DNA of 6,024 nt from Desulfuromonas sp. SDB (GTDB lineage: Bacteria > SDB-A): positions 1 through 6,024 of the forward strand of contig LKUE01000297.1 in assembly GCA_001412365.1 (NCBI GenBank), in the 5' to 3' direction. The translations under genes and the position numbers were made by a program. This document shows positions 1,985 to 6,024 of the stretch, piece by piece. Within the stretch, counting starts at the first letter, position 1. Every line of letters starts with the position of its first letter. Below the pieces are notes generated by a model, which was not told the origin of the DNA, searched no databases, and saw only the letters and a list, made by a program, of their open reading frames with translations.

Positions 1985-2695
1985 TTAATTATCTTTTATA
2001 TGTGTGGACTCATTTAGGGTGTCAATACTTTTTTCCGAACCCAAATTAAACAATAAATCGATCACGCTCATGTACGGTTCGAATCCCGGCCATCTTTGTG
2101 AATATTGTTTTGATTCAAAAACAAAATATTTTAAATCAATTCCAGCATCGAAAATGCTTTTTTCTACTAAATATCCTTTTCCACCCATCCCTGAAAAATA
2201 AGTTTTACAATCACATTTCGATAAAATATCAATAATTAAATCTGTTTTTTTTAGGTTAAAATCTAAATCCATTTCGCTAGCCCGGATTATTTTTGGATGA
2301 ATGTCTAATTTATTTGCAATAAAGTTTATCATAAATTCATTGAGTTCTTGTAACATCTTATATTTTTTTTCCATATAGAGATTCTCAAAGAAGCTGCTAT
2401 TTTCATAAAAAAATTCCGATTTACTATAATTTGCAAGAATCGCATTCCAATGTTTTTTCCACCACGAATCATCTTCAGGAAGCCTAACACCATTAATTGG
2501 AGTTCCATAATATTTTCTTTCGATAGGTACTGTAATCCAGTTCCATCCATTTTTTACTCGAATTTTATTTCGATTAACAATGCCATTTTTTGGATATTCC
2601 ACATTATCAAGTACTATAAAAACATCGCATAAATTCATTTTACAGAAATATCCAATCCAAGGTAAATAATTTGGTTGATGAATTGCAACTTTCAT
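1985..2695 (-). CDS. WbqC-like family protein (surface glycan cluster)
   Basis: This protein of 236 residues belongs to the WbqC-like family, found in O-antigen and other surface-polysaccharide clusters; the biochemical role of the family is not firmly established. The hallmarks are the N-terminal HQPNYLPWIGYF (residues 6-17), VFIVLDNVEYPKNG followed by NRNKI (25-45), a central FSGMGGKGYL, and the C-terminal PYMSVIDLLFNLG. The ATG at 2695 is preferred over the GTG at 2731. It puts the conserved motif at the very N-terminus, as is usual for the family, and it is preceded by GTGATC (2699-2704), part of the archaeal Shine-Dalgarno sequence; the upstream GTG has no such site. The gene is strongly AT-rich. 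It follows the formyltransferase gene by 73 bases on the same strand, so the two may be co-transcribed, although a TATA-like sequence lies in the gap. The context suggests a step in making or attaching a modified amino sugar. Confidence 0.85.
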   Translation of the reverse strand: MKVAIHQPNYLPWIGYFCKMNLCDVFIVLDNVEYPKNGIVNRNKIRVKNGWNWITVPIERKYYGTPINGVRLPEDDSWWKKHWNAILANYSKSEFFYENSSFFENLYMEKKYKMLQELNEFMINFIANKLDIHPKIIRASEMDLDFNLKKTDLIIDILSKCDCKTYFSGMGGKGYLVEKSIFDAGIDLKYFVFESKQYSQRWPGFEPYMSVIDLLFNLGSEKSIDTLNESTHIKDN

Positions 2696-2698
2696 TTT

Positions 2699-2704
2699 GA
2701 TCAC
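2699..2704 (-). promoter_or_regulatory. Ribosome binding site deciding the start of the wbqC-like gene
   Basis: GTGATC on the minus strand, three bases before the ATG at 2695, is complementary to the region just inside the 3' end of archaeal 16S rRNA (part of AGGAGGTGATC). It supports the ATG at 2695 as the true start rather than the in-frame GTG 36 bases upstream. Confidence 0.55.
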
Positions 2705-2750
2705 GCTTGTACTATTTTTTTGCAATTTCACTAAACAGATGATAGATAAT

Positions 2751-2768: not shown

Positions 2769-3590
2769 TTAAGTCATTATGTGATTCACTCCTCTCTTAA
2801 TTGTTTTTTTAAGCATAATCAATTGATATTTCATCGCATCTTTTAATGTAGGCGTAGAGTGATAATTGGCTTTATCGGGATCATTATATATCAGAATATT
2901 TACTTCCCTTTCAATTTCATCTAGGGATTGAAGCATCAGATCTGCTGCAACATCATACCCTTTTTGTGCAAGGCTTAAAAAGTTGTCATTATTATCGACG
3001 GGAAATCTGCTTTGAGCAATAATATCACCCTGATCAACTTCTGCTGTCACAAAATGAATCGAGACACCTGTCTCTTTTTCTTGATTCAAAAGAACCCAGA
3101 AGGGCGTCAACCTTCCTCTATTCCGAGGCAATAGTGATGCATGCCTGTTTAACACGCCCTTTAGAGGTATGGAAATAAACTTTTCACTTAAGATTTCCTG
3201 TGCCTGATTGATAATTATATCAGGCTTTAAACTTTTCAGCTCTTGGATAAATGCCTCATTATTGACCGATTCTATTTCCCATGCGGGTATTCCAGCTTCC
3301 TTTGCGGTCTGGATTATTGAGGGAGACCGAATATACAGGAAAAATCGAGAAAACCTACAACGAATTTTAAAATCAATTATCAATAAAGAGACTTTGAATG
3401 AACCGATAATTCCCATAATAATGAGTAATGTAACGGCATATGCAAAATTAACTCTTTTCCCCTTCGCCTTTATTCTGTTCCCTTTTGAAGTCGCAAGACC
3501 AATGATATCATCTTTTCTTTCAGCAATGACTTTTGAGATAAAAGCATTCGTATAAACGGGCTCATCCATTGTTGTGATAAAGATCCTCAT
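2769..3590 (-). CDS. Formyltransferase family protein (probable sugar N-formyltransferase)
   Basis: This 273-residue protein carries the formyl-transferase fold shared by methionyl-tRNA and sugar N-formyltransferases, which use N10-formyl-tetrahydrofolate. The active site is intact: Asn148 and His150 in VLNRHASLLPRNRG, and Asp186 in EVDQGDIIAQ, with TGVSIHF (174-180) before it. These match the Asn-His-Asp catalytic set. The C-terminal YHSTPT (243-248) recalls a recurrent YYSWPT-type ending of glycan-cluster formyltransferases. No OB-fold tRNA-binding domain is present, so a nucleotide or lipid-linked amino sugar is a likelier acceptor than initiator tRNA. Residues about 49-72 are unusually hydrophobic for this region, with Lys/Arg-rich flanks; this could be a membrane-contacting insert. 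The ATG at 3590 overlaps the TGA of the upstream deacetylase remnant by four bases (3587-3590), a sign of former translational coupling. A weak GAAGGG (3599-3604) lies eight bases upstream of the ATG. Confidence 0.85.
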   Translation of the reverse strand: MRIFITTMDEPVYTNAFISKVIAERKDDIIGLATSKGNRIKAKGKRVNFAYAVTLLIIMGIIGSFKVSLLIIDFKIRCRFSRFFLYIRSPSIIQTAKEAGIPAWEIESVNNEAFIQELKSLKPDIIINQAQEILSEKFISIPLKGVLNRHASLLPRNRGRLTPFWVLLNQEKETGVSIHFVTAEVDQGDIIAQSRFPVDNNDNFLSLAQKGYDVAADLMLQSLDEIEREVNILIYNDPDKANYHSTPTLKDAMKYQLIMLKKTIKRGVNHIMT

Positions 3591-4449
3591 AGGTATATCC
3601 CTTCAAAGTCCCTTGCATAGTTACGAACGTAAATAAAATAAAAACCATATGATTTGCCAAGTTTTAGCAATTCTTCTATCATTTTGACAGATTTGAACCC
3701 TAAATTATGCAATTTCAGGTATGGTCTCATCTTATCTGTAAATATATATTCGATTTTGATGGCAGATCTTCTCTCCTCTCTATTCCACAACCCTTTAGCA
3801 CCAATCAGAATATCTATTTATTCATTGGGATAAAAAATAAGACTATTGGTCTGCCGGTCTGCGCCGAATTAATGAACATGACCTTCTGAAGTAGCCTGAC
3901 AGGTAAATGGAAAAATCTTCCTCGTGGTTCCAATATAGGGATGAAGAGCGCGGATATTAGGATCTTGATGACCGAGCGGCCCCTGTCAAAAATGGTAGGG
4001 TCTCACAAGACAATGGGTCATTTCAACTTCTGCTTCGAGCCGAACGTAATTGGACCCTCGAAACGCTGGTCCAAGCCGGGATAAATTATGATCTTTCCCA
4101 TGGAAAATTTCCGTGATAAATTCCCGTGGAGAAGCCTTGGATCTGTAATTCTGCTATCGCAATGATCAATGCCCTCTCAATGCATGATCACTTGTTGAAT
4201 AACTTTATCTCGAATGCATAACTCACGTGGTTTATGGGGCTTGAGTTATCCCAAGCGTGTCTTCAGGACCCCTTCTGCATTATAGAGTTCAGGTACCAGT
4301 TTCGGAGATTCTTCATTCCCTGTTCCCGGTCGATAAGATAAACTATCTAAGTACTACAGGGATTATCGGCCATTACTCATCCTTTTCTCGATTTAGTGTG
4401 GATACAGAGCGATAGCACCTTTTACAGAAAATTGAATACACATCCTCAT
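3587..4449 (-). pseudogene. Decayed polysaccharide-deacetylase-family (CE4) gene
   Basis: No intact frame exists here, but the minus strand keeps deacetylase-like sequence, in order, across three frames. 4449-4246: a start reading MRMCIQFSV, then ESPKLVPELYNAEG (stops at 4393-4395, 4363-4365, 4354-4356 and 4246-4248). 4229-4086: EIKLFNK, then ERALIIAIAELQIQGFS (stops at 4188-4190 and 4086-4088). 4101-3832: DQRFEGPITFGSKQKLK, RGRSVIKI and GRPIVLFF (stops at 4018-4020 and 4003-4005). 3838-3587: PNE, a stop at 3818-3820, IDILIGAKGLWN, then MRPYLKLHNLG and an intact C-terminus. Restoring one base between 3831 and 3832 would give FFHPNE, as in this family's C-terminal region. The last 67 codons (from 3790) are open and could be mistaken for a small gene. 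The metal-binding Asp and His residues expected near the N-terminus are not recognisable. At about 287 codons, the reconstructed length suits the family. The gene once led the operon with the formyltransferase. Identity rests on motif memory, without a database search. Confidence 0.7.
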
Positions 4450-4578
4450 TTTTCTATATGATAGCATGTAAGGAGGCAAATATTATTATTAATAAGAAGG
4501 TTGATATTATTATTTTGTAAGAACCGATCTATCCGTTGATTACTCTTATAACAAACCATTTGAAGAATTAGGAGATTT
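4450..4578. promoter_or_regulatory. Divergent AT-rich promoter region between the two glycan transcription units
   Basis: This 129-base gap separates the leftward deacetylase remnant from the rightward amidotransferase gene, so promoters for both directions should lie here. It holds TATA-like runs, including ATATTATTATT at 4480-4490 and the same 11 bases again at 4504-4514. AGGAGG at 4471-4476 on the plus strand is not followed by a usable start codon; it comes directly after an ATG-TAA start-stop at 4466-4471. A specific TATA box cannot be picked with confidence. Confidence 0.4.
4569..4574 (+). promoter_or_regulatory. Ribosome binding site of the sugar amidotransferase gene
   Basis: TAGGAG lies four bases before the ATG at 4579 and seven before the next in-frame ATG at 4582. 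The spacing slightly favours the second ATG, which would give a protein starting MIKRCSKC. The two choices differ by one methionine. Confidence 0.55.
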
Positions 4579-5649
4579 ATGATGATAAAACGGTGCAGTA
4601 AGTGTGTGGAACCAGAAAGTGCCCCGCACATTACATTTGATGAACAAGGTGTCTGCAATTATTGTAAAACACATAAAAATTTTTCTTTAAAAGGAGAAGA
4701 AGCATTAAAAACAATCTTGGATTCATGTAAACAAAAAGGAGGAAAGTACGATTGTATTGTTGCATTAAGTGGTGGACGAGATAGTAGCTATGTGCTTCTG
4801 AAGGCAGTGAAAGATTATGGGCTTAAAGTACTCGCCGTAAACTATTGCAACCCGTTTACCGATCCCCAGGCGCTTAAGAATATTGAAAATGCTGTGAAAA
4901 TTCTCGATGTTGATTTAGTATCTATTGAAGATAAAAACGATGCTCATAAAAAGACTTTTAAAAATAATGTGAAAGCCTGGTTTAAAAAACCTTCTGCCGC
5001 AACAGTAGGAATGGTTTGTATTGGATGTAAGAGCATGTGGCTGGGGATAATAAAAACAGCAAGACAATACGATATTCAATGTATTATTTCTGGAGGGAAC
5101 CGGTTCGAGGAGATTTCATTCAAGAAAGAGTTGGTTAATGTTTCCCATGATGAAGAGCGGGAAAATAAATTTAAAAAGGCATTGGTTGGTGTAATCACTG
5201 AAGTATCAAAGAATCCCGGTTTTTTCCACCCCATCTGTATTCCTACGATGATAAAAGGGTATTTATTCGCGAATGAATATTGCCCCGGTTCAAAAATACT
5301 GGGATATAACATGGATAGAATACAGCTCTTTGATTATATCCCTTGGGATGAAGATGAGGTCATTTCGAGGATTTCATCAGAATTGAAATGGGATTACCCC
5401 AAAAAATTACACTCAACCTGGCGCTTTGACTGTAGGATAGGTCATATCAGGGATTATATGTATTTAAAAACTCTCCAAATGACGGAAAGAGACGATTTAT
5501 ACGCGAAAATGGTTAGGGAGGGAGTCATTACCCGCACAGAGGCACTGGAGAGGCTGGAGATGGAGAATAAAATACACTATGATGAGATAAAGGATCTTCT
5601 TAATTCCGTCGGAATCATGGACACCTCATTTATCGAAGAATGTCTATGA
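4579..5649 (+). CDS. N-acetyl sugar amidotransferase (WbpG/PseA-like, PP-loop ATPase)
   Basis: This protein of 356 residues matches the WbpG/PseA/WbuX type, which converts an N-acetyl group of a nucleotide sugar into an acetamidino group using ATP and ammonia. It makes amidino sugars for O-antigens and glycoprotein glycans. Visible signs are two N-terminal cysteine pairs (CSKC at 6-9, CNYC at 26-29), likely metal-binding; the PP-loop SGGRDSS at 64-70; CIGC at 147-150; ISGGNR at 170-175; and KLHSTWRFDCRIGHIRDY in the C-terminal third. The enzyme is cytoplasmic, with no signal peptide or membrane segment. The length is near normal for the family and the frame is intact. In characterised systems ammonia comes from HisH- and HisF-like partners encoded alongside; none is seen here. 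The gene is AT-rich like the rest of the island and is transcribed away from the deacetylase-formyltransferase-wbqC unit. Exact substrate unknown; PP-loop relatives with other substrates cannot be excluded. Confidence 0.85.
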   Translation: MMIKRCSKCVEPESAPHITFDEQGVCNYCKTHKNFSLKGEEALKTILDSCKQKGGKYDCIVALSGGRDSSYVLLKAVKDYGLKVLAVNYCNPFTDPQALKNIENAVKILDVDLVSIEDKNDAHKKTFKNNVKAWFKKPSAATVGMVCIGCKSMWLGIIKTARQYDIQCIISGGNRFEEISFKKELVNVSHDEERENKFKKALVGVITEVSKNPGFFHPICIPTMIKGYLFANEYCPGSKILGYNMDRIQLFDYIPWDEDEVISRISSELKWDYPKKLHSTWRFDCRIGHIRDYMYLKTLQMTERDDLYAKMVREGVITRTEALERLEMENKIHYDEIKDLLNSVGIMDTSFIEECL

Positions 5650-5654
5650 GGAGG
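5649..5654 (+). promoter_or_regulatory. Orphan Shine-Dalgarno sequence after the amidotransferase gene
   Basis: AGGAGG overlaps the last base of the amidotransferase stop codon. This is where a co-translated next gene would have its ribosome binding site. No ATG, GTG or TTG begins a coding frame at a suitable distance; only ATT and ATA codons follow, and the frame from ATA at 5665 ends after 12 codons. The site is probably a leftover from a downstream gene that has been lost. Confidence 0.4.
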
Positions 5655-6024
5655 AATTCAGGCATATTATTTAGTTCTGGAAAACGGAATCCTATTCATT
5701 AAGTTTGCCCGTACAACTCAATTTCGATAAATATTTTTCCTAATGGATTTTATTGACCCAAACTCCTCACGTATTAGGGACTATATTCAGTTTGAGTCTC
5801 TCGACGATCTTCATTCCCTGCTTTTGCACCTAAGTGATCCTTCTTTCCTCCTTGTAAGTCACCTCATAGATCTTTGAGAGTTATAAGAGGAGCCCGTGGG
5901 AATATGGAGGGGCAGACATCCCTGCCTGTTTGATCCAATTCAGGATCTGGCAGTAGAGATAAAGACGTGAGGAATCTGATAGACATGCCCGAATAACGCT
6001 TTTGTATCCCGAAAAAATAAATTT
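5650..6024 (-). pseudogene. Gene-free stretch with a minus-strand coding remnant of unknown family
   Basis: There is no intact gene in these 375 bases. On the minus strand one frame from 6000 to about 5740 reads like protein apart from a few stops. Its parts are RLYLYCQILNWIKQAGMSAP, a stop near 5881-5883, LSKIYEVTYKEERR, a stop at 5830-5832, VQKQGMKIVERLKLNIVPNT, a stop at 5767-5769, then GVWVNKIH. The residues are amphipathic and mixed, unlike random translation, and the frame persists across all three stops without a shift. I do not recognise the family; a transposase C-terminus is one possibility. The remnant runs off the right edge, so more may lie outside. The plus strand shows nothing convincing apart from the orphan ribosome binding site at 5649. 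A short T-run at 5734-5738 might terminate the amidotransferase transcript. Confidence 0.4.

Follow-up and report, generated by a model that had tools for sequence, protein, structure and literature searches.

Remnant of a polysaccharide deacetylase gene upstream of a formyltransferase gene in a surface-glycan locus

Known deacetylases and layout of the locus

Polysaccharide deacetylases of the XrtA-system and archaeal kinds, found for example on plasmids of Nitratidesulfovibrio, Methanosarcina vacuolata and Haloarchaea, share their overall protein type with L052, an intact deacetylase of genome G543. No detectable alignment with the remnant described here was obtained for any that were tested. 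The plasmid proteins were listed with a generic probe for the family, and the probe was not used as evidence. Between adjoining genes of an operon, overlaps of stop and start codon of the ATGA type are common. A search of the literature returned nothing on the present locus.

The window, that is, the whole stretch of DNA analysed, is the entire 6,024-base contig C297 of the 433-contig genome G000, about 38% GC. The features considered below are as follows.

1985-2731, minus strand: WbqC-family protein, open (PF08889, E=4.2e-65)
2769-3590, minus strand: formyltransferase of the sugar type, open (PF00551, E=1.5e-22; ArnA/Fmt-like models)
3587-3590, minus strand: ATGA overlap between the stop of the probable pseudogene and the start of the formyltransferase gene (read from the sequence)
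3590-3817, minus strand: unbroken 76-codon tail of the probable pseudogene (open frame; its alignment with L052 stays in one frame)
3590-4068, minus strand: recognisable part of the probable deacetylase pseudogene, equivalent to L052 residues 172-331 (frameshift-aware alignment)
4069-4449, minus strand: claimed N-terminal half, homology not detected (shuffle-level scores; composition)
4579-5649, plus strand: divergent WbuX-like N-acetyl sugar amidotransferase-like gene, open (TIGR03573)

The product of the divergent gene scored 168.5 bits against TIGR03573 over residues 4-351, below the model cut-off of 203.2. The formyltransferase carries, by eye and in agreement with L021, the N-x-H and D residues expected of the catalytic set of its family; the original prediction had likewise credited it with a full catalytic set. 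No intact gene was found between the formyltransferase and WbuX-like genes, where the longest open frame comprises 76 codons on the minus strand (3817-3590). It ends at a TGA (3589-3587) that overlaps the ATG of the formyltransferase gene (3590-3588), again as predicted, and the remnant was thus the gene upstream of the formyltransferase and WbqC genes. Taken together, we regard the region as very probably the decayed remains of a polysaccharide deacetylase gene of the PF01522 type, now a pseudogene, which formerly preceded these two genes in an operon for surface glycans and whose stop overlaps the start of the gene after it.

Alignment of the remnant with an intact deacetylase

For a search of 386 genomes, two neighbouring C-terminal readings were fused over a single frame change into a query of 139 aa. 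With the window itself set aside, L052 was clearly the best match (31% identity over query positions 4-132), at an E value of 2.8e-7 that holds for a single genome and corresponds to about 1e-4 over the whole set; the next-best match reached E=0.002, and those inspected were other proteins. L052 is a polysaccharide deacetylase of 336 aa with PF01522 at residues 57-164 (67 bits) and a weak similarity to PF11959/DUF3473 at residues 204-292. Downstream of L052 lies an acyltransferase-like gene, whereas the remnant is followed by the formyltransferase gene. Genome G543 also holds a deacetylase piece that consists of the C-terminal part only, since a 126-aa open frame at G543:C1:788940-789263 matches L052 218-326 and nothing else of it (34%, E=1.2e-14).

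L052 was then compared with the DNA using a purpose-written frameshift-aware protein-to-DNA aligner (BLOSUM62, gap 11/1, frameshift 14, stop -5). Against 3561-4578 it scored 138, while 300 dinucleotide shuffles gave a mean of 33 and a maximum of 49. The minus strand from 4068 to 3599 is collinear with L052 172-331 in three frames, with 55 of 153 residues identical (36%), and the similarity reaches the C-terminal end; the difference is that L052 is intact and has its catalytic domain. Three in-frame stops (4020-4018, 4005-4003 and 3820-3818) and four frame changes (near 3940, 3905, 3888 and 3841) interrupt the remnant. Its two halves, 4068-3844 and 3838-3617, are significant separately, each exceeding all of 1000 shuffles; when parts of the region were aligned alone, 3842-4100 scored 69 (shuffle maximum 56, n=1000), 3960-4120 scored 48 (maximum 42) and 3600-3841 scored 76 (maximum 44). 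The matching stretch at 4068-4021 (QRFEGPITFGSKQKLK / QRFDFFLSFGSKKKIK) lies outside the search query and therefore provides an independent check. As a control, unrelated proteins of the window remained at shuffle level except the formyltransferase, whose score of 50 is due to its own first codons lying inside the tested stretch. Collinear similarity to an intact family member thus runs across broken frames beyond chance, over the whole (138 against 49) and in both halves, as befits a pseudogene.

The remnant is real, and smaller than had been claimed. The dead deacetylase was expected to be near full-length from an ATG at 4449, with at least seven internal stops and about four frameshifts. 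Its ordered, collinear segments in three minus-strand frames were recovered over 4068-3599, and a continuous alignment across the frame changes was obtained with L052 172-331, but 4069-4449 stayed at shuffle level and added nothing to it. Only the last ~160 residues are readable, without the catalytic domain, and the confirmed part contains four frame changes and three stops, not seven. A near full-length extent and a start at ATG 4449 are thus unsupported.

A profile search against PF01522 had been proposed as a check, and six-frame translations of 3561-4570 (stops as X) gave no match to it in Pfam at E<=10 in any frame, which by itself would look like a refutation. The silence is accounted for by the surviving part, a C-terminal region beyond PF01522 (L052 57-164). 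The single weak Pfam match in this interval, CRCB on the plus strand (E=0.028), is of a kind expected by chance. With neither a match to the catalytic domain nor a single open reading frame, the region does not count as a functional member of CE4/PF01522.

Only L052 matches strongly. Neither the remaining 22 members of the family nor 22 additional deacetylases rose clearly above shuffles, and a family profile scored 73.7 against the remnant region (shuffle maximum 65.4), weaker than L052 itself. Nothing relevant came from searches with remnant fragments in Pfam (six-frame), NCBIfam, PHROGs and PDB, from plasmids queried by tblastn with the tail or with the joined reading, or from viral contigs compared with the tail or L052. 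Three of the six PF01522 proteins of the bin itself were validly compared (L001, L004 and L005 were left out), with no meaningful match, and the genomes reached via the archaeal centre G060 contained weak deacetylase relatives, none of which matched the remnant. The orthologous locus, against which the suggested selective or recent loss would have to be judged, was not found in the family, class or phylum sets, the last of four genomes, and relatives of the formyltransferase elsewhere are distant.

The 5' stretch and the distribution of lesions

Upstream of the remnant, 4069-4578 stayed within the shuffle range when aligned with L052 1-175 and two other N-terminal halves, relaxed frameshift penalties included, and likewise with a 23-protein family profile and the 22 further deacetylases. 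The silence of the other family members says little, since they are too distant to detect even the part confirmed by L052; that of L052 itself over the 5' half says more. A plausible, though not the favoured, account is that 4069-4449 is unrelated sequence and that the gene had been truncated near 4070, through an insertion or a rearrangement, before it decayed. It would explain why 4069-4578 lacks any match to the catalytic half, which is usually the more conserved of the two, and it agrees with a GC content there of 43-47%, or 41-47% when 4069-4449 is considered, as opposed to 27-38% in the flanks. Against a truncation, the length of 4069-4449 would fit the missing N-terminal half, the rise in GC begins near 3830, within the recognised part, and no second copy was found in the bin; moreover, neither Pfam six-frame searches nor blastn against plasmids revealed a known mobile element or family in the 5' stretch, and blastn of 3830-4578 against plasmids yielded chance matches only.

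The lesions are unevenly placed, all seven falling in 4068-3818 and none in the final 228 bases. Putative translational coupling to the formyltransferase, with the last 67-76 codons kept open as a leader, would account for this, and an in-frame TTG at 3790 would yield a 67-aa product ending at the ATGA overlap. If lesions were spread evenly over 3590-4068, a lesion-free tail of this kind would have a chance of ~1%, a post hoc figure, as the boundary of the tail was picked after seeing the data; open tails also arise by chance, and we consider such coupling unlikely. It is very improbable that the gene is intact and that errors of sequencing or assembly produced its stops and frame changes: the source assembly is fragmented (433 contigs), but seven lesions are packed into 250 bases while five neighbouring genes on the contig are open for hundreds of codons, and the 5' half is unrecognisable.

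The decayed pseudogene remains the preferred reading. Its history may be pictured as follows: the enzyme would have lost its use, after which point mutations and small indels accumulated; the N-terminal half would have decayed beyond recognition or been replaced; and the downstream genes would have stayed open, with a functional deacetylase presumably no longer producible from what is left.

Origin of the contig and meaning of the loss

The first 1.85 kb of the contig have 63% GC, in comparison with 25-43% at eight other loci of G000. The UppP encoded on the contig is 24-28% identical to the UppP of three genomes of the same family and, in full-length matches, at most about 38% identical to those of other genomes of the domain of G000, as against up to 43% for genomes reached from the archaeal centre; its best plasmid matches are from Haloarchaea. 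From UppP and GC together, the contig is likely archaeal and probably mis-binned in G000. G000 itself is probably bacterial, as the wider relatives in its domain include genomes as large as 9 Mb. GC drops sharply at 1850, from 63% (ORF 3-968 and UppP) to about 35% in the glycan genes, a pattern that would suit a separate origin of the glycan cluster. Within the cluster it rises to 41-47% over 3830-4440, which covers the decayed middle of the remnant and the unrecognised 5' stretch, and it is 27-38% in the clean tail and the flanks. At the right end, 5650-6024 contains no intact gene and its minus-strand frames have no Pfam match; this may be another decayed stretch.

The decayed deacetylase is a case of ordinary gene decay, which is common in variable glycan clusters. 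In practical terms, this remnant is missed by a Pfam scan and detected with a full-length relative and a frameshift-aware alignment. Loss of the deacetylase upstream, with the neighbouring genes still open, would change the sugar chemistry predicted for the organism.
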